Assembly (NCBI GenBank): GCA_004524535.1
Contig: SDNY01000023.1
Coordinates: forward strand, 1-38,436
Length of the DNA stretch: 38,436 nt
From: Promethearchaeota archaeon
GTDB lineage: Archaea > Asgardarchaeota > Lokiarchaeia > Sigyniarchaeales > SOKP01
Reading direction: 5' to 3'
The notes under the pieces are model-generated. The model saw nothing but the letters and a program-made list of their open reading frames with translations. It had not been told where the DNA came from and searched no databases. Positions within the stretch are counted from its first letter, which is position 1; every line of letters begins with the position of its first letter. Shown here one piece after another: positions 20,123-38,197 of this stretch. Both the position numbers and the translations under genes were made by a program.

Positions 20123-22276
20123 TTAAAAAAAATTAGTAAAAAATACATAGCCCCAATATACCGCACCACCAATTAACAATGCTATAACAATCTCAGAGAG
20201 CGATATTGAAAGCGAATATCTCCAACTGGTCTGTTTAGCGATTATAATCGCGGTCGCGAGACAAGGAAAATATAACATAATTATTAAACAGAAAACAATC
20301 ATTTGTATCGGTGTCATCAGTTCTAATATAGTTACTCCCATTGAAGCTGCTAAAATGGCTAGAAGGACTAAAGTTAATTCTTTTCGTAAAATACCATAAA
20401 TTAAAAAGACACCAACAACAACAGGTAATCCTAACCAAAGAACGGTGATTGGAGATAACACGATATTAATTGGCTCCAAAAGATTGAAGATTAACATGAT
20501 TTCTAATAAGATTCCTAAGATGATAATAATTGGTAGAGCTTTAAATATAAATTCCTTACTTCTCATATACGTTTGTTTAACAATTACATTAGGGTTAGGA
20601 ACGCGATAATCGTGCATTTCCATAATTAATTCTGTACATTCACCAGGCATTATTTTTTTTAATATTCTTCCTACTAATAGAATTACAGAAAAATTTATAA
20701 TGAACAAAAATAAAACCCATAAAAGCCCTAAATAACGCCCAACTAAACCTAGAACTACCGTCATCACTGCTGCGCAAGGAACGAGTGAAGTTAACGCAAC
20801 TGATATCTTCTTTTCGCGTTCAGTCTCCATTATTCTACACCCAGCACATGCGGGGACATTACATCCAAAACCTAAGATCATTGGAATTATCGTCTTTCCA
20901 TGAACACCTATTACGTGCATTACTCTATCCATAAGGAAAGCTGCTCGTGGTAGGTATCCTGAATCTTGAAGTATTTCGATGATAAGAAAAAATGGTATGA
21001 CATATACAAGAACTCCTCCAACAGCTCCAAAAAATCCGCCCATTGCCCCATCCCACAGAAGTTTAACCCAAAAATTATCTTCACCGTAAGTAGCATATAT
21101 GGGTATGCTTAAATTCATAAATAAATCTTCTACTAATCCGCCTAAAAAATCGCCAACAATAAAGGTAAATGCATAGATTCCAACAATTACTAATACTAAT
21201 ATTACATAACCCCATATTGAATGCGTTGTAATGTGATCAATTTTTTCGGCCAATGTTTCCTTAATTGTTTCTGGATTATAATCTAGGACCGTTTTTTCAA
21301 TTATTTTATGGATATTGTTATAAATTTCGGAAGATATTATTGTATTAATGTCTTCACCATGAAGATCTTCCAATTCTTTACGATATTTTTCAGCTTTCTT
21401 AATAATATGTTTAGATTTATCATCAAAATCAAAAATATTAATTATTTCCTCATCATTTTCTAAAATTTTTATTGCTAAAAATCGTGAAGGATAGTTGAAT
21501 TGTAAAAAATACTCTCGATATTCATTAATCAATATGAGTAAGTCCTTTATCTTTAATTCAACTTCCTTACCATAGGAAAGTATTGATGATAAATCAGGAA
21601 ATTGAAAATATTTCTGTGCGGATCTCTCTTGAGCAATTTTAAGTTTACTTTCTTCCCTTAAATGATAATCATGACTAAGATGTTCATGTTTGTTTTTTCC
21701 ACCTTCAACATAATGAGAATGGGGATGATGAAATATGACTAATTCGATAGCCTCTTCTAATAATTGATGAACTCCTGTACCATGTACCGCAACAACAGGA
21801 AGAACTGGTAATTTAAAGATTTCTTCTAACCTTTTGAAATCTAAGTCAATTTTTCTTTTCCTGAGTATGTCCATTTGATTGATTGCCAGGATCATTGGAA
21901 CTTCTAATTCTAAAAGCTGAAATGTAAAAAATAAGTTACGCTCTAAATTAGTGGCGTCAATCACGTTTATAATAATATCTACCTCTTCAGAAACAATATA
22001 TTCTCGACTTACGATTTCTTCCAAAGAATAAGTAGATAAGCTATATATACCAGGTAGATCGACGATATTAAATTGGTAGCCTAAAAAATTAAGATGACCT
22101 TCCATTCTTTCTACAGTTTTGCCAGGCCAATTTCCGATTGTTTGCGAGAGACCAGTTAATTGGTTGAAAATTACTGATTTCCCTACATTTGGATTACCTG
22201 CTAAAGCTATATTAATTATATCCTTATATTTTCCATTATTTTTATTCGATTTCTTCTTTGGAGGATGACAGCTCAT
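20123..22276 (-). CDS. feoB: ferrous iron transporter FeoB
   Basis: FeoB imports Fe2+ across the membrane using an N-terminal G domain. In the 717 residues, G1 is GNPNVGKS (27-34), the G2 Thr is in WPGKTVE, G3 is DLPG (73-76) and G4 is NQMD. A histidine-rich linker follows around 190-215 (FHHPHSHY and KHEHLSHDYH). The membrane domain begins near 350 and carries GFGCNVPACAGCRIMETE with conserved cysteines. Length is at the lower end of the family range. It is 57 bases downstream of feoA on the minus strand. Confidence 0.97.
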   Translation of the reverse strand: MSCHPPKKKSNKNNGKYKDIINIALAGNPNVGKSVIFNQLTGLSQTIGNWPGKTVERMEGHLNFLGYQFNIVDLPGIYSLSTYSLEEIVSREYIVSEEVDIIINVIDATNLERNLFFTFQLLELEVPMILAINQMDILRKRKIDLDFKRLEEIFKLPVLPVVAVHGTGVHQLLEEAIELVIFHHPHSHYVEGGKNKHEHLSHDYHLREESKLKIAQERSAQKYFQFPDLSSILSYGKEVELKIKDLLILINEYREYFLQFNYPSRFLAIKILENDEEIINIFDFDDKSKHIIKKAEKYRKELEDLHGEDINTIISSEIYNNIHKIIEKTVLDYNPETIKETLAEKIDHITTHSIWGYVILVLVIVGIYAFTFIVGDFLGGLVEDLFMNLSIPIYATYGEDNFWVKLLWDGAMGGFFGAVGGVLVYVIPFFLIIEILQDSGYLPRAAFLMDRVMHVIGVHGKTIIPMILGFGCNVPACAGCRIMETEREKKISVALTSLVPCAAVMTVVLGLVGRYLGLLWVLFLFIINFSVILLVGRILKKIMPGECTELIMEMHDYRVPNPNVIVKQTYMRSKEFIFKALPIIIILGILLEIMLIFNLLEPINIVLSPITVLWLGLPVVVGVFLIYGILRKELTLVLLAILAASMGVTILELMTPIQMIVFCLIIMLYFPCLATAIIIAKQTSWRYSLSISLSEIVIALLIGGAVYWGYVFFTNFF

Positions 22277-22303
22277 AATTTTCTCTTATTTAAACTTATT
22301 AAA

Positions 22304-22318
22304 TGAATACATAATTCA
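22304..22318. promoter_or_regulatory. variant palindrome TGAAT-N5-ATTCA before feoB
   Basis: TGAATACATAATTCA has the same half-sites as the regulon palindrome but a 5-base spacer. It lies 27 bases before the feoB start, between feoA and feoB. The changed spacing makes binding by the same protein uncertain. Confidence 0.4.
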
Positions 22319-22333
22319 TATTAAAAAAATTAG

Positions 22334-22633
22334 TTAAAGATCGCAAGTTTGATCACATTCAACAAGAATTTTTGATGCTAAACCTCTACCTATAGCTAAT
22401 GTTGAACCTTTTACAATAATTTCTAATGGTCCATGAAAAGGGGCTTCCCTTTTTTTCTTAATTATCGTTCCAGGAACTATTCCCAAATTCGCTAATCGTC
22501 TTTTTGCTCCGAATCCCGCATTAACACCTAAAACTTTTGTTTTTTCTCCTTTATCGCATTCAGTCAAACATTTAATTAATGGCGTTCCACGCTTTTTATG
22601 ATAATTATGATTTTTATATCTTGAACTTATCAT
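22334..22633 (-). CDS. feoA: FeoA-domain protein (copy 1, upstream of feoB)
   Basis: FeoA is a small SH3-like protein that supports FeoB. Core motifs here are PLIKCLTECDKGEKTKVLGV, AKRRLANLGIVPG, APFHGPLEI and GRGLASKILV. The reading frame is open to 22720, but I place the start at 22633 (MISSRYKNHNY), because GGAGAT lies 8 bases before that ATG and the longer N-terminus is not FeoA-like. That gives 99 residues. It lies upstream of feoB in the same direction. The tail ends in CDQTCDL, an extra Cys pair beyond the fold. Confidence 0.9.
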   Translation of the reverse strand: MISSRYKNHNYHKKRGTPLIKCLTECDKGEKTKVLGVNAGFGAKRRLANLGIVPGTIIKKKREAPFHGPLEIIVKGSTLAIGRGLASKILVECDQTCDL

Positions 22634-23021
22634 TATTTTTATCTCCAAAAGAAACTTTGACTTTATTTGAAAAAAAGAAAAAATCATATTTAAGTTTTTA
22701 GATGCACCAAATTTAATCATTTTTATCTTGATTCTAATATATTATAAGAAAAAGATATTCAAAAATTATAACATATTAATTATACTTTAATATTATTTAA
22801 TATGATCTTTTATATTTAAGAAATTCTCTTTCAATTTAGATTATGAAGATATCATAAAAAAGTTTGAAACTTATTATTTTCATATTAAATGTTTAATTTA
22901 AATGAATCCGATTATTTTTAATTACTATAATATTCTAAATATTATTTAATCCATTATTTCTTCTATATATTTAGTTGGACTTAAATATTAGGAATTCTTT
23001 TTTTTGTGTAAGGTAGTATTA
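22634..23021. other. AT-rich intergenic region between divergent feoA genes
   Basis: These 388 bases separate the two divergent feoA genes and should contain both promoters. The sequence is extremely AT-rich, so TATA boxes cannot be picked reliably. TGAATCCGATTAT near 22900 resembles half of the regulon palindrome, but the second half-site is missing. I see no gene, repeat array or stable hairpin. Confidence 0.5.
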
Positions 23022-23324
23022 ATGGTAAATAATATGAATAACTTTCATAAAAATCATTACAATCATCCTTCAAAACCATTAATAAAATGCTTAACTGATT
23101 GTGAATTAGGTTCAGAATTCACGGTTGTTGGGGTAAATGCTGGTCAGAAGGCAAAAAAACGTCTTGCTCATCTTGGAATTTTTCCTGGTGTGAAAATTAG
23201 CATGAAACATTGTGCACCTTTTCGAGGCCCCATAAATATTATTGTAAAGGGAACATCCATAGTTTTAGGTAGAGGTTTAGCATCTAGAATATTAGTTGAT
23301 TCTGTAAATATGCATAATCAATAG
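23022..23324 (+). CDS. feoA: FeoA-domain protein (copy 2)
   Basis: This is a 100-residue FeoA paralog with PLIKCLTDCELGSEFTVVGV, AKKRLAHLGIFPG, APFRGPINI and GRGLASRILV, closely similar to copy 1. The frame is open from a TTG at 23004, but the ATG at 23022 has AAGGT a few bases upstream and starts a more natural N-terminus (MVNNMNNFHKNH), so I chose it. The first 15 residues contain several His and Asn. It is divergent from copy 1 and alone on its strand until DUF5320 gene 2. A role as second FeoB partner or as a separate iron-responsive adaptor is possible. Confidence 0.88.
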   Translation: MVNNMNNFHKNHYNHPSKPLIKCLTDCELGSEFTVVGVNAGQKAKKRLAHLGIFPGVKISMKHCAPFRGPINIIVKGTSIVLGRGLASRILVDSVNMHNQ

Positions 23325-23435
23325 AAGAATCTGGTTTTATTATCAACATTTTACTCATATTTTATATAACTCAAGAACTAAAACATCAAACTATTATTTA
23401 TCTTATATTTGCTATATTTCTTACGAATATGTTTA

Positions 23436-23449
23436 TGAATGATTATTCA
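23436..23449. promoter_or_regulatory. palindromic operator, distal copy before DUF5320 gene 2
   Basis: TGAATGATTATTCA. Its start is 61 bp before that of the next copy at 23497. This version is the reverse complement of the two copies before DUF5320 gene 1. Confidence 0.72.
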
Positions 23450-23496
23450 ATAATTCAAACAGATATATTTTTATATGAAAAAAACTATTTATATTA

Positions 23497-23510
23497 TGAA
23501 TAATTATTCA
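23497..23510. promoter_or_regulatory. palindromic operator, proximal copy before DUF5320 gene 2
   Basis: TGAATAATTATTCA, a perfect 14-bp palindrome. A TATA-like ATTTATATTA (23487-23496) lies directly before it. The site would thus cover the region between TATA box and transcription start, as expected for repression. Confidence 0.75.
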
Positions 23511-23564
23511 TTATAAGTTACAATATAACAAAACCAAAATTTAAAACCGAGGTGTAAAAAAAAA

Positions 23565-23945
23565 TTGCCTAGAGGTGATGGTACAGGACCTTGGGGTCAA
23601 GGTTCAATGACTGGTAGAGGTTTAGGCTATTGCGCAGGTTATAATACACCAGGATATACTAAGGGACCGGGTATGGGTCTTGGAAGAGGATGGAGTAGTA
23701 GAAGCAGGTTTGGAATTGGTAGAAATTTAGCTTGGCGTAGGGGTTGGGGCAGAGGAGTGGGTGGTTTTGGGAGTTATCGAACTCCTATTTATTTACCATC
23801 CACAATGCCTCAACCAATTGTTCCAGAGAATCAATTAAACATGCTAAAACAAGAAAAACAATTTTTACAATCTGAAATGGAGCGAATTAAAAACGGATTA
23901 GGCGATATTTCTAAAAGAATTGAGGAATTAGAAAAAACTGAATAA
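23565..23945 (+). CDS. DUF5320-type Gly/Arg-rich protein with C-terminal coiled coil (copy 2)
   Basis: This is a 126-residue paralog of the protein at 19552: MPRGDGTGPWGQGSMTGRG, then GYCAGYNTPGYTKG, a Gly/Arg/Trp-rich middle, and a C-terminal coiled coil from PENQLNMLKQEKQ. The start codon is TTG at 23565, chosen because GAGGTG lies 10 bases upstream and the N-terminus then matches copy 1 exactly. Two palindromic operators precede it. The DtxR-like gene follows after 45 bases, although a nine-T run (23949-23957) lies in between and may end part of the transcripts. Function unknown. Confidence 0.85.
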   Translation: MPRGDGTGPWGQGSMTGRGLGYCAGYNTPGYTKGPGMGLGRGWSSRSRFGIGRNLAWRRGWGRGVGGFGSYRTPIYLPSTMPQPIVPENQLNMLKQEKQFLQSEMERIKNGLGDISKRIEELEKTE

Positions 23946-23990
23946 TTATTTTTTTTTAATTTAAAAGTCCTATTAAGAAGATGAAATAGA

Positions 23991-24377
23991 ATGAAACACT
24001 TAAATAAGAGTTATGAGGATTATATAAAAGCCATATATTTAATTTCAAAAGAAAATAAAGGTGGCTGGGTATCCAATTCAAAAATTTCAAATCTTTTAAA
24101 AGTTAAACCATCTTCAGTTACAAATATGTTGTATAAGTTAAAAGCGAAAGATCTAATAGATTGGAAGCCAAACAAATCTTTAAGATTAACCAAAAAGGGA
24201 AAAAAAATTGCCCTTAGCATTGTTAAAAACTATAATAGTTTATTTGATTTTTTTGTACATGTTTTAAAATTAAAAGACAATGATCAAGTGAAAAATTTAT
24301 GCTGTAATATTGAGCATTATATAACTCCAGAGATATCTGATGCTCTAGAAAATCTTATTCTTGAATTTCATTATTAA
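23991..24377 (+). CDS. DtxR/MntR-family metal-dependent regulator (short form)
   Basis: This 128-residue protein has a winged helix at 6-70 (EDYIKAIYLIS, SKISNLLKVKPSSVTNMLYKL) and a shortened metal-binding/dimer domain, without the C-terminal SH3-like domain of long DtxR proteins. By hand alignment, one metal site appears kept: Asp10 (Met10 in DtxR, Asp8 in MntR), Cys105, Glu108 and His109 (matching DtxR Cys102, Glu105, His106). The other site is lost, with Tyr81 and Lys101 where DtxR has His79 and His98. It should bind DNA as a dimer when loaded with Fe2+ or Mn2+. Position among feo genes and behind two palindromes makes it a candidate regulator of the palindrome regulon. Confidence 0.85.
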   Translation: MKHLNKSYEDYIKAIYLISKENKGGWVSNSKISNLLKVKPSSVTNMLYKLKAKDLIDWKPNKSLRLTKKGKKIALSIVKNYNSLFDFFVHVLKLKDNDQVKNLCCNIEHYITPEISDALENLILEFHY

Positions 24378-28447: not shown

Positions 28448-28894
28448 CTATCCCTTTGTATGTTTGAATTTTTCAATCGACCGTTTTAAAGTTCTCGCAG
28501 CTAATTCTGCGCAATGTTTATGATCTTCTGGTAGCCCTCCTAAGGCATTTTCAATATCTTCTGGTCTTAAATTTTCAGCAAAATCTAAAGATTTACCCTC
28601 AATCAAAAGAGTTGTTTGGCTTCCTGCTGCTACTGTTGCTCCACAACCGTCTGTAATAAAGTTTGCTTTTTCGATTATATTATTATTATTATTAATTTTT
28701 AAAAAGAACTGCATCGTATCCCCACAAGGACCCTCATAAGCATGCCACACACTTATTTTATCAATGGGGGGTTTACCCCAATTTTTTGGATTATGGAATA
28801 ATTTAACAACGTATTGATTATATTCTTCTAATTCTTTATTTAGAATTTCTTTTTGAAGATTTTTTACAAATTCATCAAAATGCTCTTCGGCCAT
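28448..28894 (-). CDS. IscU/NifU-N-like Fe-S cluster scaffold (copy 1)
   Basis: This is a 148-residue scaffold of the IscU/SufU fold. The three cluster cysteines are Cys57 (GPCGDT, with Asp59 beside it), Cys84 (DGCGAT) and Cys128 (HKHCAE), the classic IscU set. The first 35 residues are an extra acidic helical segment. It starts 60 bases after the Mrp ATPase gene, a natural scaffold/carrier pair for making and delivering clusters. A second copy of both genes is at 35235-36495. No cysteine desulfurase is in the window. Confidence 0.88.
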   Translation of the reverse strand: MAEEHFDEFVKNLQKEILNKELEEYNQYVVKLFHNPKNWGKPPIDKISVWHAYEGPCGDTMQFFLKINNNNNIIEKANFITDGCGATVAAGSQTTLLIEGKSLDFAENLRPEDIENALGGLPEDHKHCAELAARTLKRSIEKFKHTKG

Positions 28895-28954
28895 GCTATC
28901 TTAAATTAGTTTTTTTATTAAATAAAATTTTAAATCTCAATTTAAAATTATGAA

Positions 28955-29827
28955 TTATTTTTCTAATATTTCTTGAATATTTTTTACAGCCTCCTTGAAA
29001 GCTTTCGCACTTTTACTATCAGTATATTTAATAATAAAAGGTAAACCTTTATCTCCTTGAATTCCTATTTCAACTTCAAAAGGTATTTTACCCAATAATC
29101 GAATATTGAAATCCTTCGCAGCTTTTTCAGCTCCTCCTGGAGGGTAAAGATCGATATGTTTACCACAATGAGGACAGGCAAATCCAGACATGTTTTCAAT
29201 GATCCCAAGAACATTTCTTTCCATTATTTGAGACATTTTTATTGTTTTTCGAGCATCCATAAGAGCAACTTCTTGAGGAGTAGAAACAACGACCACATTT
29301 TCATCAGGTATAAGTTGGAGAATGTCTAAAGTCTCATCAGAAGTTCCAGGTGGTAAATCACATACTAAATAATCAAGTTCGCCCCATATAGCATCGCCAA
29401 GAAATTGTCTTACAGCACCCATTTTCATTGGACCTCTCCAAATTACTGGTGAATCAGAATTCTCAAGAAGAAATGCCATACTCATAACTTTTATATTTAA
29501 AGGGCCATTAATTGGAAAAAATTTCCTAGCGTCTGGATCAACTCTTGGCTTTAATTCAGGGCTTATTCCTAACATTTTTGCAACATTAGGACCCGTAATG
29601 TCAACATCTAAGATTCCTACTCTTAATCCCACACTTGCTAAACTCATGGCAAGGTTAACAGCAACTGTTGATTTTCCAACACCTCCCTTTCCGGAGATCA
29701 CAACAATCTTATGTTTAATTTTTGCCATATTTTTTTTTATCTCTTCCATGCGTAGATCCATGGCTTCTTTTTTACCTTGTTCTACAGTATCTTTTAAGTT
29801 AATATCGGGTATCTCATCTTCAGTCAT
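28955..29827 (-). CDS. mrp: Mrp/NBP35-type Fe-S carrier ATPase (copy 1)
   Basis: This 290-residue P-loop ATPase has the deviant Walker A GKGGVGKST (46-54), DVDITGPN and PPGTSDE, plus the cluster-binding pair Cys218-x2-Cys221 (ACPHC) that bridges the dimer in ApbC/Nbp35 proteins. It carries or transfers Fe-S clusters. The N-terminal 35 residues differ from copy 2 (35235), while the remainder is strongly alike. It is divergent from the NifX-like gene at 30088 and upstream of an IscU-like gene. The 260-base gap to 30087 contains one palindromic operator, nearer the NifX gene. Confidence 0.93.
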   Translation of the reverse strand: MTEDEIPDINLKDTVEQGKKEAMDLRMEEIKKNMAKIKHKIVVISGKGGVGKSTVAVNLAMSLASVGLRVGILDVDITGPNVAKMLGISPELKPRVDPDARKFFPINGPLNIKVMSMAFLLENSDSPVIWRGPMKMGAVRQFLGDAIWGELDYLVCDLPPGTSDETLDILQLIPDENVVVVSTPQEVALMDARKTIKMSQIMERNVLGIIENMSGFACPHCGKHIDLYPPGGAEKAAKDFNIRLLGKIPFEVEIGIQGDKGLPFIIKYTDSKSAKAFKEAVKNIQEILEK

Positions 29828-30016
29828 ATCATCACTTATTCTAATTTTTTTTCCTTATTTTTATCAAAATTAAAATCTTCTCTATTTAATTTAATGTTTA
29901 ATAATATTCTTAAATTGGTTTTTAATAATTTATAAAAATTTTAAGTTTTTCTCTAAAGTTTTTTTTTATTATGAGAAAACTTTTATAGAATTAATTTTTT
30001 TATTACTTAAACAATA

Positions 30017-30030
30017 TGAATAATTATTCA
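30017..30030. promoter_or_regulatory. palindromic operator before the NifX-like/MinD operon
   Basis: TGAATAATTATTCA, perfect palindrome, 57 bases before the ATG at 30088. A TATA-like TTTTATAGAA (29981-29990) lies 26 bases upstream, so the site should cover or follow the transcription start. No second copy was found near 60 bp away. Confidence 0.72.
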
Positions 30031-30087
30031 TAATTTAAAAAACTTATCAAATAATAAAAAGAAAAACATAAAGAGGTAAATATAAAT

Positions 30088-30558
30088 ATGGTTATAGTAG
30101 CAGTTCCATCTTTTGGAGAGGGTGGATTGAATGAAATTGTCAATCCCAGATTTGGTCGCTGTGACTCATTCACTTTTGTAACAATTGAAGATAACTCTAT
30201 AAAAGAAGTTAAAGCTGTATCTAATATGGCTGCAGGTGCTATGGGTGGTGCTGGAATCCAAGCAGCTCAAACTATAGGAAATCATGGAGCTACAATAGTA
30301 ATTGCTGGAAATTTAGGTCCTAATGCTGCCCAATCATTAATGGCCTTGAATTTAAAGATTTATCAAGCGCCAACTCAACAGCTAACGGTAAAACAAGCTG
30401 TAGAATTATTCATTGAGGGTAAATTACAAGAAATGGGCGGTTCAAATGTCGGCGCTCATTTTGGAATGGGTGGTGGTGGAATGGGTGGCGGCCGAGGAAT
30501 GGGCGGTGGTCGTGGAATGGGTGGTGGAGGAGGAATGGGCGGAGGCCGTAATTTCTAA
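30088..30558 (+). CDS. NifX / orange-protein-like domain protein with Gly-Met-rich tail
   Basis: This 156-residue protein has a domain of the dinitrogenase iron-molybdenum cofactor (NifX/NifB-C, MTH1175-like) family at 1-118 (IVNPRFGRCDSFTFV, GAAGIQ-like Gly segment, IVIAGNLGPNAAQSL). The tail (about 125-156) is a GMGGG/GGRGMG repeat rich in Met, Gly and Arg. Desulfovibrio orange protein, a Mo-Cu cluster carrier, has this domain. The gene heads a cluster with two MinD-type ferredoxin ATPases, 40 bases upstream of the first. GAGGT stands 11 bases before the ATG. No nitrogenase genes are near, so a nitrogen-fixation role is not implied. Confidence 0.88.
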   Translation: MVIVAVPSFGEGGLNEIVNPRFGRCDSFTFVTIEDNSIKEVKAVSNMAAGAMGGAGIQAAQTIGNHGATIVIAGNLGPNAAQSLMALNLKIYQAPTQQLTVKQAVELFIEGKLQEMGGSNVGAHFGMGGGGMGGGRGMGGGRGMGGGGGMGGGRNF

Positions 30559-30598
30559 TTCATCATTTTAAATTGAAGGAAATAAAGTTAAATAAATA

Positions 30599-31519
30599 AT
30601 GTCAAAAAAACCTGTAGTAATTTGCGTAACGGGAGGTAAAGGCGGAACTGGCAAAACCTTGGTGGCAGTTAATTTAGCGACCATGTTTAAAAATATTGGA
30701 AAAAAGGTTTTGTTAATTGATGGTGACGTAGAAAATCCAAACACATATTTATTGTTAGGGGGAGAACTTGAAAATAAAGAATCTGTTCCTTTTTTCAAAC
30801 CAGAAATTATTGAAGAAAAATGTACTAAATGTGGTCTATGTGCGGAAAATTGCGCTCCACATGCTTTATTGCATATAAAAGATGCGTATCCAATACCAAT
30901 TTTACCAGTTTGTTCGGGATGTAAGTTATGTTATAAAATCTGCCCTGCAGAAGCTATTAAAGCAGGGCAAAAAACTATTGGTTGGACGTATTCAACAATC
31001 AAAAATGGCATCTCTCTCCTAATCGGTGAATTAAAACCATCTGAAGCGCGTTCTGCCGCCGTAGTTGAAGTTCTACTTGAGAAATTAGACGAGACCATCA
31101 AAACAGAACCAACTAAATATGATTATATTGTTCTAGATACCGCCCCTGGTGCTCATTGTGATGTTGAATTATTAATTAATAAAGCTGATTTTGTTGTACC
31201 TGTAACAGAGCCCACGAGATTTGGAAAATTAGATTTAATAAGGATAATTGAGTTGATTGAATTAATAAATAAAGATTCTCGAGCAATTGTTAATAGATCA
31301 TCATTGTTGGGTTATAGAGATCAATTCTTAAAGGAATTGGAAGAGAAAAATATAAAAATTTTAGGGGATATTCCTTTAGATGATGATATTGTCAATTCTT
31401 ACTGTCAAGGAATACCGTTAATGGACGAAAATAGCGAATTTAAAAGTGGCGAGGGTTATAAAGCATTTCAAGAAATATTTAATAATCTTATTGAATGGAT
31501 TGATACAAATAACACTTAA
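30599..31519 (+). CDS. MinD-type ATPase with inserted 2[4Fe-4S] ferredoxin domain (first of pair)
   Basis: This 306-residue protein has a P-loop at 12-20 (GGKGGTGKT), an inserted ferredoxin domain with Cys75, 78, 81, 85 and Cys105, 108, 111, 115, and the MinD core DTAPGAHCDVE and PVTEPTRFG. It resembles ORP3/ORP4 of Desulfovibrio, two such ATPases that form a complex with orange protein. It follows the NifX-like gene and is 15 bases before the second ATPase. An operon of three genes driven by the palindrome-bearing promoter is likely. The molecular task is not established in any organism I can name with certainty. Confidence 0.9.
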   Translation: MSKKPVVICVTGGKGGTGKTLVAVNLATMFKNIGKKVLLIDGDVENPNTYLLLGGELENKESVPFFKPEIIEEKCTKCGLCAENCAPHALLHIKDAYPIPILPVCSGCKLCYKICPAEAIKAGQKTIGWTYSTIKNGISLLIGELKPSEARSAAVVEVLLEKLDETIKTEPTKYDYIVLDTAPGAHCDVELLINKADFVVPVTEPTRFGKLDLIRIIELIELINKDSRAIVNRSSLLGYRDQFLKELEEKNIKILGDIPLDDDIVNSYCQGIPLMDENSEFKSGEGYKAFQEIFNNLIEWIDTNNT

Positions 31520-31534
31520 AATAATAGGAAAAAA

Positions 31535-32461
31535 ATGAAGAGAAAAGCAATAGGAATAATATCTGGAAAAGGTGGTGTTGGAAAAACATCATTAACAGCA
31601 GCACTAGCAAGCATTGTAAGAACAGATAATGAAATAAATGCAATTATCTTAGATTGTGATGTAGATGCCCCTAATCTGGCTTTAATCCTTCCTGAAGAGC
31701 CAAATAGTAAAATAAAATCACTAGATACTTTTACAACACTAAAAGCTACTTTCTTAGAGGATAAATGCGTTCAATGCAGGCAATGTATTGATGATCACTT
31801 CTGTGAATTCAATGCGTTAAAATGGGACGAAGAAAATTCTATTCCAACTATTGATTATTTAGCATGTGAAGGCTGTGGAGCTTGCAAAGTTTTATGTCCT
31901 GAGCACGCTTTTGAAATAAATACTGTAAAAAGTGGCGAAATAATTTCTTATAAAACAAACATTACATTACCATTAATATATGGTAAAACTAGACTTGGTA
32001 GTACGACATCTGGAAAATTAGTTTCAGATGTCAAAGAATATGCTAAACAAGTTGATGAATTTGAAGATTGCAATTTAATTTTGATAGATGGACCACCTGG
32101 CATAGGTTGCCCTGTAATTGCCACGGTTTCTGGATTAGATTACATTATTACAATAACAGAGCCAACTCCCTCCGGTTTACATGATCTTGTAAGAGCAATC
32201 GAAGTAGTACAACAATTTGAAATTCCATTTGGGATAGTAATCAATAAATTTGATTTAAAAAGTCCTTTTCAAGATGATTTTAAAGAGTATATTGAGAATA
32301 CAGGATTTTATATTTTAGGAAAAATTCCTTTTGATCTGTCAATACCTAAAGCAATGTCCTATGCAGAATCCGTAGTGGATTTCGCACCAAACTCAGATGC
32401 AAGTTTAGCTATTAAGGCTATTTATAATAATCTCAAAAATGCTTTATGGAATAGTGAATAA
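31535..32461 (+). CDS. MinD-type ATPase with inserted ferredoxin domain (second of pair)
   Basis: This is a 308-residue partner of the previous ATPase, with P-loop SGKGGVGKTS (10-19). The first cluster motif is Cys78, 81, 84, 90, i.e. C-x2-C-x2-C-x5-C, a wider last gap than the normal x3; the second is canonical, Cys111, 114, 117, 121. The core has LIDGPPGIGCPV and TEPTPSGLHDL. The same CIDDHFC-like unusual motif recurs in the polyferredoxin at 36498. The two ATPases likely act as a heterodimer. It ends convergent to the DUF134 gene 122 bases away. Confidence 0.9.
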   Translation: MKRKAIGIISGKGGVGKTSLTAALASIVRTDNEINAIILDCDVDAPNLALILPEEPNSKIKSLDTFTTLKATFLEDKCVQCRQCIDDHFCEFNALKWDEENSIPTIDYLACEGCGACKVLCPEHAFEINTVKSGEIISYKTNITLPLIYGKTRLGSTTSGKLVSDVKEYAKQVDEFEDCNLILIDGPPGIGCPVIATVSGLDYIITITEPTPSGLHDLVRAIEVVQQFEIPFGIVINKFDLKSPFQDDFKEYIENTGFYILGKIPFDLSIPKAMSYAESVVDFAPNSDASLAIKAIYNNLKNALWNSE

Positions 32462-32583
32462 ATTTTAGCTATAAGTTAATTGAAAACATTAAAAAGAAGG
32501 AATTATATTCTCTATAATATTATTCTGAACTAATTCTAATTATTTAGTTAATTCTATCCCTGTGATTAAAAAAAAAAGTATTA

Positions 32584-33003
32584 TCAGATAGGTTCTCGTA
32601 TTAAATAATAAACATTATCCGAATCGCAATTAATACACTTAACTTTTTTATCTCTAGATGCGGATCTATCCTCCCATTCACTATCGCAATCCGCACATCC
32701 ATACCCAATGAAAGTTATTTTATAATCAACCTCCCCGCCGAATACCTTAATAGTTTTTCCTTCAATTAAAGCTTGAGTAACTTTTTGATGAGTTCTTTCT
32801 ATGATACGAGAAAATGTTGGTTGACTTATTCCCATCCATTCGGATGCCTGTTCCTGATTCAAATTCATATAATGTTTAAGGCGAAGAGCTTCAAATTCTG
32901 CTACAGTTAGAATAATATTTGCTTCCGTTGATGGGCTCTCGCGAGAGAAATAAAAATTATTTGGTGGTTGACCAACCCATCTGCGACGAATTCTTCTTCC
33001 CAT
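32584..33003 (-). CDS. DUF134 predicted DNA-binding protein
   Basis: This is a 139-residue protein with the family start MGRRIRRRWVGQPP, a sigma-70-region-4-like helix-turn-helix at 34-82 (LTVAEFEALRLKHY, LNQEQASEWMGISQPTFSRI), and a C-terminal CxxC pair set (Cys103, Cys106, Cys123, Cys126) likely binding zinc. DUF134 genes are regularly found beside NifX-like and MinD-like genes, so it may regulate them. It lies between the MinD operon and the His-tailed NifX gene. It is, with the DtxR-like protein, a candidate binder of the palindromes. Confidence 0.87.
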   Translation of the reverse strand: MGRRIRRRWVGQPPNNFYFSRESPSTEANIILTVAEFEALRLKHYMNLNQEQASEWMGISQPTFSRIIERTHQKVTQALIEGKTIKVFGGEVDYKITFIGYGCADCDSEWEDRSASRDKKVKCINCDSDNVYYLIREPI

Positions 33004-33132
33004 TTCGAATCAACTAGCAAGTTTTGAATGAAAAATATTTATAATATTATCATAAAAAAAAATTTCTCAAGATCTATAGAATTTTAATTTTTTTAGGGGA
33101 ATTAATTAAGTTTGATTAATGAGTTATTTCTT

Positions 33133-33540
33133 TTAATGATGATGATGATGATCATCATCTATATCATCAGCGTCAGTATGGATTTTTTCTACTCCAAAAC
33201 CCTTACCTATACCAGGAGAACATAAACTCTCTCCGCCTTCTAGTGTCCCATTTAATATTCTTTCAATAACATCATCAATAGAGCCAACAACCCCTACAAT
33301 TACTTCAATCCCATATTGGTTAAAAAATTGGACTGCTCGAGGTCCCATTCCCCCAGCAATCATAAAATTCGCACCTTGTTGACTTACAAATTGGGGGATA
33401 CTTCCTACGGAATGCCCTGGATTGGGAAGTACTTCTTTTTTAACTACTTTATTATCTTCAATTGTAACAAAAAGAAACTCTGGAGCTCTTCCAAAATGTG
33501 CACAAACTTTTCCCGATTCCATACTAATAGCTATTTTCAA
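33133..33540 (-). CDS. NifX / orange-protein-like protein with acidic, five-His C-terminus
   Basis: This is a NifX-like domain protein: KIAISMESGKVCAHFGRAPEF, PNPGHSVGSIPQF and MIAGGMGPRAVQFF are the hallmarks. It ends DADDIDDDHHHHH, a natural acidic and histidine tail likely to bind metal. The frame is open to an ATG at 33573, but I prefer the TTG at 33540: AGGTG lies 10 bases upstream, the same arrangement as DUF5320 gene 2, and the protein then begins with the domain's first strand (135 residues). The promoter holds a palindromic operator over the expected transcription start. It is 129 bases upstream of DUF134, same direction. Confidence 0.85.
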   Translation of the reverse strand: MKIAISMESGKVCAHFGRAPEFLFVTIEDNKVVKKEVLPNPGHSVGSIPQFVSQQGANFMIAGGMGPRAVQFFNQYGIEVIVGVVGSIDDVIERILNGTLEGGESLCSPGIGKGFGVEKIHTDADDIDDDHHHHH

Positions 33541-33606
33541 TTTTATTATACACCTATTTATTTTTATATTCATATTTTAAGAATAAATTCAAGCATTTAA
33601 ATTTTA

Positions 33607-33620
33607 TGAATAATTATTCA
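33607..33620. promoter_or_regulatory. palindromic operator before the His-tailed NifX-like gene
   Basis: TGAATAATTATTCA, perfect palindrome. On the minus strand a TATA-like box (within 33631-33644, TTTTTATATAAAAA) precedes it at a distance that places the transcription start near 33612, inside the palindrome. This is the clearest case for repression by steric block. Confidence 0.75.
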
Positions 33621-33630
33621 TAAATAAACC

Positions 33631-33644
33631 TTTTTATATAAAAA
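33631..33644 (-). promoter_or_regulatory. TATA-like box for the His-tailed NifX-like gene
   Basis: TTTTTATATAAAAA, symmetrical, about 25 bases before the palindrome centre in the direction of the minus-strand gene. One of the few TATA candidates in this AT-rich region that is flanked by G/C-containing sequence. Confidence 0.45.
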
Positions 33645-33710
33645 GCTGGAATTCCTTTTTTACTGTAATTATATATTTTAAATAAATGTTATCCTTATAA
33701 TTTAGAATTC

Positions 33711-33920
33711 TTAATAATGAAGATTTTTCTTAATTTCTCCGTTAGGAAGCATATTATCAGGATGGTATTCACCATTTTCTTCCATTTGGTATCGAATACA
33801 TTCTTTATTTCCAATTAAGCAATAATCTTCAACCCATTTTGAATCGAGTTTTCCATGATCCACAAAATACTTGATTGGACAGACCATATACCATTTACAT
33901 ATTCTTTTTTTATTTGTCAA
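33711..33920 (-). CDS. small four-cysteine protein (69 aa), family seen in anaerobes
   Basis: This 69-residue protein starts MTNKKRICKWYMVCPIKYF and has Cys8, Cys14, Cys34 and Cys41, then YQMEENGEYHPDNMLPNG. I recall similar short proteins in other anaerobic prokaryotes under uninformative names, but do not know a function. Four cysteines could hold a cluster or zinc. It is divergent from the gene at 34181, with unusual GC-containing palindromes between them. Confidence 0.7.
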   Translation of the reverse strand: MTNKKRICKWYMVCPIKYFVDHGKLDSKWVEDYCLIGNKECIRYQMEENGEYHPDNMLPNGEIKKNLHY

Positions 33921-34018
33921 GTTGTAAATTTGATCCTCATTCTAATTTAATAATAATTGAAAATTAATAATTACCGATTAAATAAATTTTTTATTTTATT
34001 AAGATATATTGAATTCTA

Positions 34019-34053
34019 TCCGATGTATTGGACTTTATCCGAATGATGTTCGA
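34019..34053. promoter_or_regulatory. tandem imperfect palindromes (TCCGAT..ATTGGA and CCGAATGATGTTCG)
   Basis: TCCGATGTATTGGA (34019-34032) and TCCGAATGATGTTCGA (34038-34053) are adjacent imperfect inverted repeats, both beginning with TATCCGA. They lie 5 bases before a TATA-like TTTAAATA (34058-34065). A related CGAATATTATTCG lies at 34132-34144. They resemble, but do not equal, the TGAAT-N4-ATTCA sites. Confidence 0.4.
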
Positions 34054-34131
34054 TAGATTTAAATATGATAATTCATACATATATTATGGAAGATGAGTTA
34101 AAATATTTTAAATAAGAAAAAAAAATAAAAC

Positions 34132-34144
34132 CGAATATTATTCG
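34132..34144. promoter_or_regulatory. inverted repeat CGAAT-N3-ATTCG in the leader of the gene at 34181
   Basis: CGAATATTATTCG has five-base arms. It is placed about 40 bases downstream of the predicted transcription start and 36 bases before the chosen start codon. It is a candidate third copy of the GC-type operator. Confidence 0.35.
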
Positions 34145-34180
34145 AATTATAATTAAAAAAAAAATTGAGGTGATATGGAT

Positions 34181-34462
34181 ATGATTGAAGCAAAAGTAAA
34201 TCTCGAAAAAAGAGATGATTTTGAATCAAAAATTAGGATTGAAGCATATAATCTAATGAATGCATGTTACCCCTACGATGTATTGTGTTGGGAACTCGCT
34301 GAATTTATACTACTTTATCAAAAAGGGCATGGAAAATATTCCGAACACGATCTTAGTAAGAAAAAAGAGATGATTTTTGATATTTCCCCTACTTATGAAC
34401 AAATCTGCTTACTAATTAGTACATATAAATGCTACCTTACGCAAGAACATCGTTATCCATAA
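34181..34462 (+). CDS. small hypothetical protein (93 aa)
   Basis: I do not recognise it. The frame opens at an ATG at 34175, but GAGGTGA (34167-34173) ends only one base before that; the ATG at 34181 is 7 bases after it and is the better start. The protein is soluble and mainly helical, with three cysteines (in NACYP, VLCWEL and TYKCYL) and an aromatic-rich centre. It is followed after 26 bases by a universal stress protein gene, so probably co-transcribed. The GC-type palindromes before it suggest its own regulator. Confidence 0.65.
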   Translation: MIEAKVNLEKRDDFESKIRIEAYNLMNACYPYDVLCWELAEFILLYQKGHGKYSEHDLSKKKEMIFDISPTYEQICLLISTYKCYLTQEHRYP

Positions 34463-34488
34463 TTAATAAAAAATAATTAATATTAGAG

Positions 34489-34959
34489 GTGATTATTATT
34501 TATAAAAAAATATTACTCGGATTAGATGGATCCGAAAATTCTAATAGAGCAGCTAAGAAAGTGATTGAGCTTCAGAAAAAATGGAATTGTAATGTTGTTA
34601 TATTTCATTCGATTAAACATCCTAAGAAAATTTTTCTATATCCATTAGTACTGACAGCATCTTTTGGCTCATGTTATACAACTGAAATAAACTTCCTAAC
34701 TGAGTATGAAAAAGAAGCTAAGAAGATATTGAGAGACAATAAAAAAATATTTGACGAAGCACAAGTACCAGTTGAAAGTCGACTAATTAAAGATGAAAAT
34801 CCTGAAGATTATATCGAAAGAGTGGTAAAAGAAGAAGGATTTGATTTAGTCGTAGTAGGTATTAAAGGAGTCCATTCTAAATTAAGGCAAATCATTACGG
34901 GATCAGTAGCTCAAAAAGTGATTAAACACACTCCTTGTGATGTTTTAATCGTCAAATAA
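34489..34959 (+). CDS. universal stress protein (UspA family)
   Basis: The conserved Usp start is YKKILLGLDGSENS and the ATP-binding motif G-x2-G...GS is VVGIKGVHS...ITGSVAQ near the end, followed by CDVLIVK. The formal start is GTG at 34489, but this GTG is part of the ribosome-binding sequence GAGGTGA (34486-34492). The family normally begins with Met directly before YKK; that codon is ATT at 34498, 5 bases after the purine stretch, so a non-canonical ATT start is possible. Usps bind ATP or signal under stress; the specific role is unknown. Confidence 0.88.
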   Translation: MIIIYKKILLGLDGSENSNRAAKKVIELQKKWNCNVVIFHSIKHPKKIFLYPLVLTASFGSCYTTEINFLTEYEKEAKKILRDNKKIFDEAQVPVESRLIKDENPEDYIERVVKEEGFDLVVVGIKGVHSKLRQIITGSVAQKVIKHTPCDVLIVK

Positions 34960-35000
34960 TAATATTATATCTATTGAAAATTCATGAGGTTAAAAGATTA

Positions 35001-35159
35001 ATGTCTAAAAGTAAAAAATATATCTCTCAAGAGCTCTCAAAAATAATAAGAGATACCAAAAATCTTAATGAAAGAGTAAAAACTATACCACACCTATATA
35101 AAATTTATGAAGTTCCAGATGCAAAGATTTTACATAAAAAACGTAGAGAAGGGGATTAA
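35001..35159 (+). CDS. small basic hypothetical protein (52 aa)
   Basis: This is a Lys/Arg-rich helical protein beginning MSKSKKYISQELSKI, with no recognised domain. The frame opens at a TTG at 34974, but ATG 35001 lies 9 bases after GAGGTT and is preferred. It stands 41 bases behind the Usp gene and 75 bases before the second Mrp gene. It may be a genuine small gene because it has a ribosome site and fills the gap, but the evidence is thin. Confidence 0.5.
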   Translation: MSKSKKYISQELSKIIRDTKNLNERVKTIPHLYKIYEVPDAKILHKKRREGD

Positions 35160-35234
35160 TACTTTATAGATTTATTTAGTTTATTTAAAAATTATTAGTA
35201 TATTAGCAAATTCAACAAAAAGGAGGTTAAAATT

Positions 35235-36080
35235 ATGTCAAAAAGTGAAATGGAAGAAAAAATAAACAAGACGGATAAAATAGTAGATAAAATTCATAAA
35301 AATATGGCAAAAATTAAGCATAAGATTGTTGTGATCTCTGGAAAGGGAGGTGTTGGAAAAACTACAGTCGCTGTCAATCTCGCTGCAGCTCTAGCAAATG
35401 AAGGGCAGAAAGTTGGAATTCTAGATGTTGACATTACGGGTCCTAATGTAGCTAAAATGTTGGGAATTAGCCCTGAATTGAAACCTTGGGCAGATCCAAA
35501 ATCAAAGAAAATCTTTCCAGTTGATGGACCCTTAAATTTAAAGGTGTTGAGCATGGCACTTCTAACTAAAAATCCAGACTTACCCGTGATATGGAGGGGT
35601 CCAATGAAAATGAATGCTCTAAGACAGTTTTTAGGAGAGGTTGTATGGGGTGAACTCGATTATTTAGTATGTGATTTACCACCTGGTACTTCCGATGAAG
35701 TCTTAGATATATTGCAATTAATTCCAGACGAGACTGTAGTAGTAGTTTCAACACCTCAAGATGTAGCTATAATGGATGCTCGAAAAACAATTAAAATGAC
35801 GCAAATAATGAAAAGAAATCTCTTGGGAATCGTTGAAAATATGTCGGTATTTAAATGTCCAAAATGCGGCGAACTTATCGAAATTTTTGGAAGTGGTGGT
35901 GGAGAAAAGGCAGCGAAGGATTTTGGAATTAGAATGCTTGGAAAGATCCCTTTTGAAAAAGAAATAGGAAAACAAGGAGATCTAGGCCTACCATTTATCT
36001 TCAGATACCCAAATTCCGAGAGTTCGAAAGCTTTTAAATCTATAGTGAAAAAGATACGTGATATTAATGAGAAAAATTAA
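35235..36080 (+). CDS. mrp: Mrp/NBP35-type Fe-S carrier ATPase (copy 2)
   Basis: This 281-residue ATPase is closely similar to the protein at 28955: P-loop GKGGVGKTT (36-44), the cluster cysteines Cys208-x2-Cys211 (KCPKC), PPGTSDE and RYPNSESSKAF. A strong ribosome-binding sequence AGGAGGT (35221-35227) precedes the ATG by 7 bases. Its stop overlaps the start of the IscU-like gene. It forms with that gene and the polyferredoxin an operon that repeats the mrp-iscU order of the first locus. The N-terminal 25 residues diverge from copy 1. Confidence 0.93.
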   Translation: MSKSEMEEKINKTDKIVDKIHKNMAKIKHKIVVISGKGGVGKTTVAVNLAAALANEGQKVGILDVDITGPNVAKMLGISPELKPWADPKSKKIFPVDGPLNLKVLSMALLTKNPDLPVIWRGPMKMNALRQFLGEVVWGELDYLVCDLPPGTSDEVLDILQLIPDETVVVVSTPQDVAIMDARKTIKMTQIMKRNLLGIVENMSVFKCPKCGELIEIFGSGGGEKAAKDFGIRMLGKIPFEKEIGKQGDLGLPFIFRYPNSESSKAFKSIVKKIRDINEKN

Positions 36081-36495
36081 ACAAAAAAAAGTTGAAAAAG
36101 AACTCTCAGAATATAATAAGTATATAATAGAATTATTTCACAATCCTAAGAATCTTGGCAAACCCAAGAAAGCCGATATTAGCGTATCTCAATCATATAC
36201 CGGACCATGTGGAGATACAATGCAGTTCTTTTTAAAAATTAATGATAATATAATCGAAAAGGCCAATTTTATCGCAGATGGTTGTGCTGCTTCTGTTACG
36301 ACAGCCAGCCAAACAACAATTCTCATTGAAGGTAAATCTTTAGATTTTGCAGAAAAATTAAAAGCAGAAGATATTGACGAAGCGTTGAAAGGCTTACCGG
36401 AAGATCATAAACATTGCGCAGAATTATCAATAAAAACTTTAAAATGGGCAATAAAAAAATATAAAGATAAAAGATTATTGGATATTTATGAATAA
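36067..36495 (+). CDS. IscU/NifU-N-like Fe-S cluster scaffold (copy 2)
   Basis: This is a 142-residue scaffold with the three cluster cysteines Cys48 (GPCGDT), Cys73 (DGCAAS) and Cys117 (HKHCAE), aligned to those of copy 1 at 28448. I chose the ATG at 36067 over the GTG at 36058. It overlaps the Mrp gene by 14 bases. The polyferredoxin gene starts 2 bases after its stop, so the three are one operon. DGCAASVTTAS replaces DGCGATVAAGS of copy 1, a difference around the second ligand. Confidence 0.88.
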   Translation: MRKIKQKKVEKELSEYNKYIIELFHNPKNLGKPKKADISVSQSYTGPCGDTMQFFLKINDNIIEKANFIADGCAASVTTASQTTILIEGKSLDFAEKLKAEDIDEALKGLPEDHKHCAELSIKTLKWAIKKYKDKRLLDIYE

Positions 36496-36497
36496 TA

Positions 36498-36920
36498 ATG
36501 GAAAAATTATTTCCTATAAATATTAATCCGCAGTTATGTATTCGCTGTCAAAAATGTTCCTTTTCCTGTCCTACAAAGGCAATTTTTTTTAGAAATTCCT
36601 TAAGGTATGTAGATTATAATAAATGTAAAGGATGCCTTAAGTGTGTAGACGTTTGCGAACATAATGCTATTGAAGTAATTTCAATGGAAGAAGGACAATT
36701 AGTTAATTTTAAAATTGATAACGAGAGATGTAATCTTTGTAAAAAATGTTTAGAGGATGAATTTTGTTTTCAAAATTTATTTTCTCTTAGTATTGACTCA
36801 GAGATAGGTCAAGAGCTAATTACATTTAATAAAAAAAACATGTATCTCTGTCAAAATTGTTTGAAATGTGTTTCTACTTGTCCTAATAATGCAATAATTC
36901 CGATTATTGCTCTTGAATAA
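36498..36920 (+). CDS. polyferredoxin with four cysteine motifs
   Basis: This 140-residue protein is made of four Fe-S binding motifs: Cys14/17/20/24, Cys43/46/49/53, Cys78/81/84/90 and Cys118/121/124/128. Motifs 1, 2 and 4 are C-x2-C-x2-C-x3-C. Motif 3 is C-x2-C-x2-C-x5-C, without the usual proline, as in the MinD-type ATPase at 31535. It can hold four [4Fe-4S] clusters and pass electrons. It follows the IscU-like gene by 2 bases. Possible roles are electron supply to cluster assembly or client of the Mrp-IscU pair. Confidence 0.88.
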   Translation: MEKLFPININPQLCIRCQKCSFSCPTKAIFFRNSLRYVDYNKCKGCLKCVDVCEHNAIEVISMEEGQLVNFKIDNERCNLCKKCLEDEFCFQNLFSLSIDSEIGQELITFNKKNMYLCQNCLKCVSTCPNNAIIPIIALE

Positions 36921-36976: not shown

Positions 36977-38197
36977 ATGTCTGAAATAGATAAAAATTTA
37001 AAATTTTACAAGCAACCAGTTTTTATAAATCTTTTACTCTTACTTTTCAATACTATTTTTTTTATATTTAAACTAATTTTTGGTATTTTAACAAACAGTT
37101 TAGCAATCCAAGCAGATGCGTTTGACAACATGACTGATATTGTTATCTGTATTACTTCCTTTATTGGGATTTATTTTGCAAAAAAAAAGCCGAATGAAAA
37201 GTTCCCTTATGGATTTTTCAAAATAGAAAATATAATTTCTTTAATAATTTCTTTATTCATTTTTTTCACGGCATATATTATTATTAATCAATCTATTTTA
37301 GATATAATTACTTTCATAAATGGAAATCCAAAAATTGTTGATTTTTCGCTAATAGCTTTTTTTTTTCTAATCATTTCATTGTTAGCTTCCTTAATTTTAG
37401 CATTATATTTGAAATTAATAGCTAAACAAACTAATTCACCGATTATTAAATCAGAAGCACAGGAAAAAATGTTTGATATTTTTATTTCTTTATCTGTACT
37501 TGTTGGATTCATTTTTGTTTTATTAAAAATCTCTATTTTAGATTCAATAATAGGTTTAATTATTGCAATCCTCATAATTAAAGGAGGATATGAGATTTTT
37601 CTTACGTCCACAAAAACATTACTTGATGCTGTTATTGATTTTGATAACAGAACAGAACTTTATAACTTAATTCAAAATACTCCGAAAGTTAAAGAAATTG
37701 AAACTATGGAAATAAGGTCTTATGGCAGGTACATCTTTTTAGAGTTGGAAATCTATTTAAGTAAAAATTTTCCATTATCTCAGATAGATAACTTAAAAAA
37801 TAAGTTAAGTTCCGATATAAAAAAGAAGTTTCCGTCAATATTTAAAATTATAATAATTGTCAAAAGTCAGAAAAAAGAAATTACTATAATTGCTATTCCT
37901 TTAGAAAATAATCGAGGTTTAGATTCGAATCTTTCAAATCATTTTGGAGAAAGTCCCTATTTTGGGATCGTAGAATTTCAAGAAGGAACTCTCTTAAAAT
38001 TTGAGATTATTGTAAATAAATTTGCTCACGAAGAAAAAAGAAAAGGAATATTAGTTTCTGATTGGTTAATCTCTAAAAAAATTGATAAAATTTATTTAAA
38101 AGAACCTCTTAAAAAAGGGCCCTCCTTAATTTTTAATAATAACTTTGTGGATGTTGAGCTCAGTAATTTCAATTATTTAAATGAGATTATTAATTAA
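36977..38197 (+). CDS. cation diffusion facilitator fused to a C-terminal NifX-like domain
   Basis: This 406-residue protein has a CDF transporter at 1-295: about six membrane helices (14-38, 41-67, 86-107, 124-149, 167-185, 186-206) then a cytoplasmic domain. A NifX-like domain follows at about 302-400 (EITIIAIPLE, LSNHFGESPYFGIVEF). The metal site in helix 2 is Asp50-x3-Asp54. In helix 5 Glu163-x3-Asp167 stands where zinc/iron CDFs have His-x3-Asp, so metal choice may be altered. It is 56 bases behind the polyferredoxin. CDF-NifX fusions are known from genome annotation, but I know of no tested function. It could export Fe2+, Mn2+ or another metal sensed by the NifX domain. Confidence 0.88.
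   Translation: MSEIDKNLKFYKQPVFINLLLLLFNTIFFIFKLIFGILTNSLAIQADAFDNMTDIVICITSFIGIYFAKKKPNEKFPYGFFKIENIISLIISLFIFFTAYIIINQSILDIITFINGNPKIVDFSLIAFFFLIISLLASLILALYLKLIAKQTNSPIIKSEAQEKMFDIFISLSVLVGFIFVLLKISILDSIIGLIIAILIIKGGYEIFLTSTKTLLDAVIDFDNRTELYNLIQNTPKVKEIETMEIRSYGRYIFLELEIYLSKNFPLSQIDNLKNKLSSDIKKKFPSIFKIIIIVKSQKKEITIIAIPLENNRGLDSNLSNHFGESPYFGIVEFQEGTLLKFEIIVNKFAHEEKRKGILVSDWLISKKIDKIYLKEPLKKGPSLIFNNNFVDVELSNFNYLNEIIN

Follow-up and report, generated by a model that had tools for sequence, protein, structure and literature searches.

The window analyzed here is a 38,436-nucleotide stretch of a Promethearchaeota archaeon (contig SDNY01000023.1), and its closest public copies are in Lokiarchaeota MAGs at 92-93% identity. 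An open reading frame near its end (36977..38197, + strand) runs in one frame from ATG to TAA, encodes 406 amino acids with matches to PF01545, PF16916, and PF02579, and has full-length orthologues. A preliminary description of this DNA had assigned it as a CDF metal transporter with a NifX-type C terminus, and that assignment was confirmed by Pfam and by a profile match to solved structures. The CDF transmembrane domain (residues ∼18-218; 37028..37630, +) was located using PF01545, an AlphaFold model, and Foldseek. Cation_efflux (PF01545) matched residues 21-216 with 136 bits (Pfam cut-off 26.6), TIGR01297 matched with 200 bits (NCBIfam cut-off 82), and the AlphaFold model (pLDDT 85, pTM 0.62) contains helices at residues 2-39, 42-68, 81-114, 125-152, 155-182, and 187-215; with a Cation_efflux score above the cut-off and six transmembrane helices, this part of the protein is a CDF. 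The model also has an alpha/beta region at the location of the ZT_dimer cytoplasmic domain (residues 223-293; 37643..37855, +; PF16916, 29.9 bits) and a second alpha/beta domain at the C terminus. Foldseek placed it on YiiP over ∼285 columns with a TM-score, normalized to the target, of 0.81. The fusion shares with YiiP/FieF, the zinc/iron/cadmium exporter of E. coli and Shewanella, the fold of its first ∼295 residues, the DxxxD motif of TM2, and the xxxxD motif of TM5, but differs in having Glu163 in place of His153, in the loss of all four CTD zinc-site His residues, and in its extra NifX domain, with about 20% identity. Its best resemblance among NCBIfam equivalog-level models was to the iron-associated magnetosome CDFs MamB and MamM (143 and 134 bits, respectively); membership was ruled out, as these scores are far below the curated cut-off of 350. 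Those models also lack a NifX domain. An assembly chimera was likewise excluded by full-length, stop-free copies in dozens of separate assemblies. One broken copy was seen in a Lokiarchaeal relative (G157:C11:176313-176837), with a TGA and a TAA within the match.

The C-terminal NifX-type domain (IPR003731; residues 301-406; 37877..38194, +) carries an H322-F-G motif and no Cys. The Nitro_FeMo-Co/NifX match (PF02579, residues 316-373) scored 24.2 bits in the whole protein, slightly under the Pfam cut-off of 26.3, and 27.5 bits, slightly over it, when the domain was scanned alone; PF02579 was matched by 11 of 11 fusion C-terminal domains taken singly. A profile built from these 11 domains found MTH1175 (1eo1, E = 1.5e-20) as the best solved match, followed by the same-family structures 1t3v (3.4e-20) and 1o13 (4.5e-20), together with PH0822, and it also matched ORP (2wfb, E = 5.7e-7), so the weak Pfam score reflects divergence rather than absence of the domain. 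The earlier statement that this C terminus belongs to the same family as two free-standing proteins nearby also held, all three falling in PF02579 (78 and 68 bits for the free proteins). Among 81 distinct fused proteins the domain retains H322 in 66, N347 in all 81, and G357 in 80, and Cys is usually missing. NifX-family domains bind Fe-S species in IssA, which stores iron and sulfur as thioferrate (PMC5524996), and in MrpORP (PMC6345978). IssA and MTH1175 are both soluble, single-domain proteins; the cationic tail of IssA is absent from the fusion, and MrpORP has a CxHFGHCE motif whereas the fusion's domain is free of Cys. Because H322-F-G, N347, and G357 are kept without Cys, any Fe-S binding would be closer to that of the IssA globular domain than to that of the MrpORP motif. 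A C-terminal NifX/NifB domain is also present in FmpB (DMR_41100), an iron-biomineralization protein of Desulfovibrio magneticus (PMC4287615), where it is fused to a magnetochrome domain and not to a CDF.

Upstream of the fusion lie genes for an Mrp/NBP35 Fe-S carrier ATPase (35235..36080, +; PF10609, 317 bits; NCBIfam MrpORP, 327 bits, below the cut-off of 450), a NifU_N-type scaffold that overlaps the Mrp gene (36058..36495, +; PF01592, 102 bits), and a ferredoxin-type protein with several [4Fe-4S] motifs (36498..36920, +; Fer4, three stretches). The last of these ends 56 bp upstream of the fusion, the gene order is kept in a second locus (L060), and a TATA-like stretch lies within the 56 bp, making co-transcription with the upstream genes likely rather than certain. 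The block further encodes two MinD-type ATPases with inserted ferredoxin motifs, similar to Orp3/Orp4 (30599..32461, +; CbiA/ParA plus Fer4), a DUF134 regulator-like protein (32584..33003, −; PF02001, 74 bits), and the two free-standing NifX-type proteins, one of them ORP-like (33133..33573, −; 78 bits) and the other with a Gly/Met/Arg tail (30088..30558, +; 68 bits). Two Mrp plus NifU_N pairs in opposite orientation flank the block (28448-29827, −, and 35235-36495, +), apparently through duplication. Farther off in the window, genes for FeoB, two FeoA-type proteins, a DUF5320 protein, and a DtxR/IdeR-type iron-dependent repressor are clustered at 20123-24377. A MinD-ferredoxin pair, Mrp, and a free NifX-type protein occur close together at 28955-36080, as in ORP-type clusters, and by its gene content the block corresponds in archaea to the orange-protein (ORP) cluster of bacteria. 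ORP-type clusters are also characterized by sigma54-controlled divergent operons and by a Mo-Cu cluster in Orp8; archaea are not known to have sigma54. The fusion's neighbors share with the Desulfovibrio ORP cluster (Orp3, Orp4, Orp5, Orp8, and MrpORP) the MinD-ferredoxin pair, Mrp, and free NifX-type proteins, Orp3/Orp4 there having ferredoxin motifs and Orp8 being NifX-type (PMC6345978). By contrast, the Desulfovibrio five-protein complex includes no CDF, and its NifX-type domain is fused to Mrp (PMC6345978). The long tail of the 30088-30558 protein (GGGGMGGGRGMGGGRGMGG...) recalls the glycine-rich, positively charged tails of the thioferrate-storage proteins IssA/IssX (PMC5524996).

The preliminary description had also proposed that the fusion ties metal export to this cluster-handling block, and comparison across archaea strengthened the proposal. 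At least two of the four gene types (free NifX, MinD-ferredoxin, Mrp, and DUF134) were found within 6 kb at 20 of 61 fused loci and at none of the 23 loci with a plain CDF (Fisher test, p = 0.001), and DUF134 was present in 15 of 17 non-Asgard genomes with the fusion versus 61 of 148 without it (p = 0.0002; hand count), where both p-values ignore shared ancestry and treat related, non-independent loci as separate samples. Co-directional NifX, MinD-ferredoxin, Mrp, or DUF134 neighbors of the fusion occur in about 13 archaeal families, and an ANME-2a record places a CDF gene near 4Fe-4S, NifX-family, and P-loop NTPase genes (PMC12622379). The linkage is frequent and not universal: about two thirds of the sampled fusion loci, most Lokiarchaeal ones included, have a single block gene or, in most cases, none within 6 kb, and Lokiarchaeal loci L061-L068 have no block gene nearby. 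These results suggest a link between the export of metal and the handling of iron-sulfur species in these anaerobes. In many archaea the fusion and MinD-ferredoxin genes are arranged as in an operon, which would also fit a protein that serves as a membrane anchor or metal channel, placing an ORP-like NifX/MinD-ferredoxin complex at the membrane or moving metal for cofactor assembly instead of acting mainly as a detoxifying exporter. Also in favor of this role, MrpORP has a polar location, and a C-terminal amphipathic helix like that of MinD has been reported for Orp3/Orp4 (PMC6345978). We regard this role as quite improbable, however, in view of the many fusion loci without a block nearby, and transport is expected because site A is fully kept, as described below.

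The distribution of the fusion was examined by searching 228 Asgard genomes, which contained full-length fusions throughout Asgard, and by a profile search of 393 archaeal genomes, which turned up 17 more, complete or almost complete, in archaea outside Asgard. Besides Asgard, at least 10 archaeal families have the fusion. The CDF domains of 63 fused and 20 plain proteins were placed in a maximum-likelihood tree after long branches and near copies had been taken out, and the fused CDFs formed one side of a single branch (98/88), recovered in 98% of bootstrap trees. A larger quick tree agreed, apart from one long-branch degenerate plain CDF. We conclude that the fusion is one old archaeal CDF family, a single clade among the sampled archaeal CDFs. 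The CDF-like archaeal protein encoded at L137 7737-8633 has a degenerate site (DDAS) and sits close to the fused clade on a long branch; it may be a paralogue without transport activity. The same genome as the window has a second CDF (L002 1477-2928, G000:C135) of 483 amino acids with a DD-ND site and three tandem ZT_dimer stretches, and similar CDFs are found in other Lokiarchaea (L064, L066, and L067). A search of plasmids did not find the fusion: the window protein had no match, and a more typical fusion matched plain CDFs only, none covering 80% of the query. One Acetoanaerobium record contained a plain CDF and no fusion. A CDF-NifX fusion was not found described in the literature searched; domain databases may already list the architecture.

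The residues of metal site A were assigned by alignment to E. coli FieF, whose D45, D49, H153, and D157 correspond to D50, D54, E163, and D167 of the fusion, giving a DD-ED quartet divided between TM2 (D50xxxD54; 37124..37138, +) and TM5 (E163xxxD167; 37463..37477, +). The earlier reading that Asp50 and Asp54 are kept and that Glu163 takes the place of the usual His was borne out, and the possibility that another His completes the site was eliminated, as the whole protein has only two His residues, H322 and H351, both within the NifX domain, and the transporter part has none. The second Asp of each pair (D54 and D167) is present in 81/81 fusions. Since D54, E84, D167, and D217 are invariant among the 81 fusions and E163 is found in 31/31 proteins of the Lokiarchaeal branch, the site appears to be under selection. 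Other positions vary: residue 50 is D in 42, H in 20, and N in 17 of the 81, with one gap, and at the third position of the site 50 fusions have E, 24 have H, 6 have D, and 1 has N. The corresponding quartets are DDED in 40 (plus one with its N terminus cut short), NDHD in 13, HDHD in 11, HDED in 7, and rarer types in the rest, with ND-DD and DD-DD sites also occurring within the clade. In the sample of plain CDFs, almost all of them from archaea, the third position is H in 14, N in 11, D in 1, and A in 1, and at least six changes between Glu and other residues are required on the tree. The suggested search for the same Glu in other fusions therefore succeeded on the Lokiarchaeal branch and failed in general, fusions elsewhere having H, D, or N, and Glu as a signature of the fusion was rejected. 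The regulatory region is also altered: FieF H232, H248, H261, and H283, the regulatory zinc ligands in YiiP, align with E242, E258, D271, and I294, so that every YiiP zinc-site His is gone. The ZT_dimer His residues are missing from some plain CDFs as well, and any coupling between Glu163 and the loss of the CTD His residues would be judged on just four to six independent contrasts, too few to demonstrate it.

The fusion, with neither the TM5 His nor the CTD zinc ligands, falls outside the FieF/YiiP-type zinc CDFs, and its TM5 ExxxD sequence places it outside the Mn-CDFs (group III), which have DxxxD. With every zinc-sensing His of the YiiP type gone, regulation by zinc in the ordinary way is disfavored. 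The suggestion that a site made up of acidic residues points to Mn2+ or Fe2+ instead of Zn2+ is weakly supported. It gains some weight from these two features, TM5 ExxxD rather than HxxxD and the missing regulatory His residues; it is offset by the HD-HD, ND-HD, ND-DD, DD-DD, and HD-ED sites of other fusions in the clade. CDF clade 8, classed as zinc, also has HD-ED, and A-site composition correlates poorly with metal (PMC5703985), so an acidic site is not enough by itself to decide which metal is carried. The same points, together with the same-clade HD-HD and HD-ED fusions, would be accommodated by an ordinary broad-range or zinc exporter in which Glu is simply tolerated at the site and the NifX domain extends the dimer in a passive or structural way, but E163 does not vary in the Lokiarchaeal branch, none of the four YiiP CTD His residues remains, and N347 and G357 are kept clade-wide, unlike the expectation for a passive tail; we consider this reading rather unlikely. 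An Mn2+ exporter, with E163 replacing Asp in an all-carboxylate site, would be in keeping with TM5 DxxxD marking Mn-CDFs and HxxxD marking the Zn and Fe/Zn groups (PMC1868760), with the Mn assignment of the DD-DD and ND-DD clades (PMC5703985), and with the ND-DD sites of close sister fusions (L039 and L040). It is nonetheless unlikely in our judgment, for the Mn-CDF residue is not Glu, a preference for His/Glu was seen for Fe2+ in a literature survey, and the gene context is Fe-S rather than Mn. Fe2+ is favored because of this Fe-S context, the loss of the zinc-sensing His residues, and the presence of FeoAB and an iron-dependent repressor on the same contig, although its likelihood remains below even.

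Our tentative interpretation, which we hold with less than even confidence, is that the fusion exports a divalent first-row metal, most likely Fe2+ and possibly Fe2+/Mn2+, and that its NifX domain is a sensor of Fe-S material or a docking site for it. The domain layout, the site residues, the single clade, and the gene neighborhood are observed here; the direction of transport, the metal, and the regulatory role of the NifX domain we infer. D50, D54, E163, and D167 would bind the metal within the membrane, between TM2 and TM5, and an alternating-access cycle like that of YiiP would carry it out of the cytoplasm, with E163 perhaps serving both as a ligand and as the proton or counter-ion carrier that is normally a His. 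The dimer domain on the cytoplasmic side is without the YiiP zinc-sensing His residues, and the NifX domain may replace or add to it as a regulatory module, sensing an Fe-S species or docking the ORP-like NifX/MinD-ferredoxin/Mrp machinery, such that export would answer to the iron-sulfur state of the cell. This Fe2+ export scheme is favored by the CDF fold and site, the invariant residues, the His-free transporter part, the lost YiiP zinc ligands, the NifX domain, the Fe-S binding of such domains in IssA and MrpORP, the 20/61 versus 0/23 linkage, and the FeoB, two FeoA, and repressor genes on the contig. Against it stand sister fusions with HD-HD sites, which would be read as Zn, the distance of FeoB and the repressor (12-17 kb) and their being common archaeal genes, the Cys-less NifX domain, the majority of fusion loci without a nearby block, and the loss of ZT_dimer His residues in plain CDFs too. 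A bolder version, in which CDF-NifX would be the dedicated membrane arm of an archaeal ORP-like Fe-S system, with the NifX domain reading the Fe-S/thioferrate pool and gating Fe2+ export, is in our view somewhat improbable as it stands.

The results define an archaeal CDF subfamily that arose once, carries its own NifX domain, and occurs across Asgard and other archaea. Its site A quartet has shifted several times under a constant architecture, making the subfamily a natural test set for CDF metal choice. The ORP/MinD-ferredoxin/NifX gene block gains a membrane transporter, and if the proposed gating is correct, metal efflux would be controlled by cluster state instead of by free metal.
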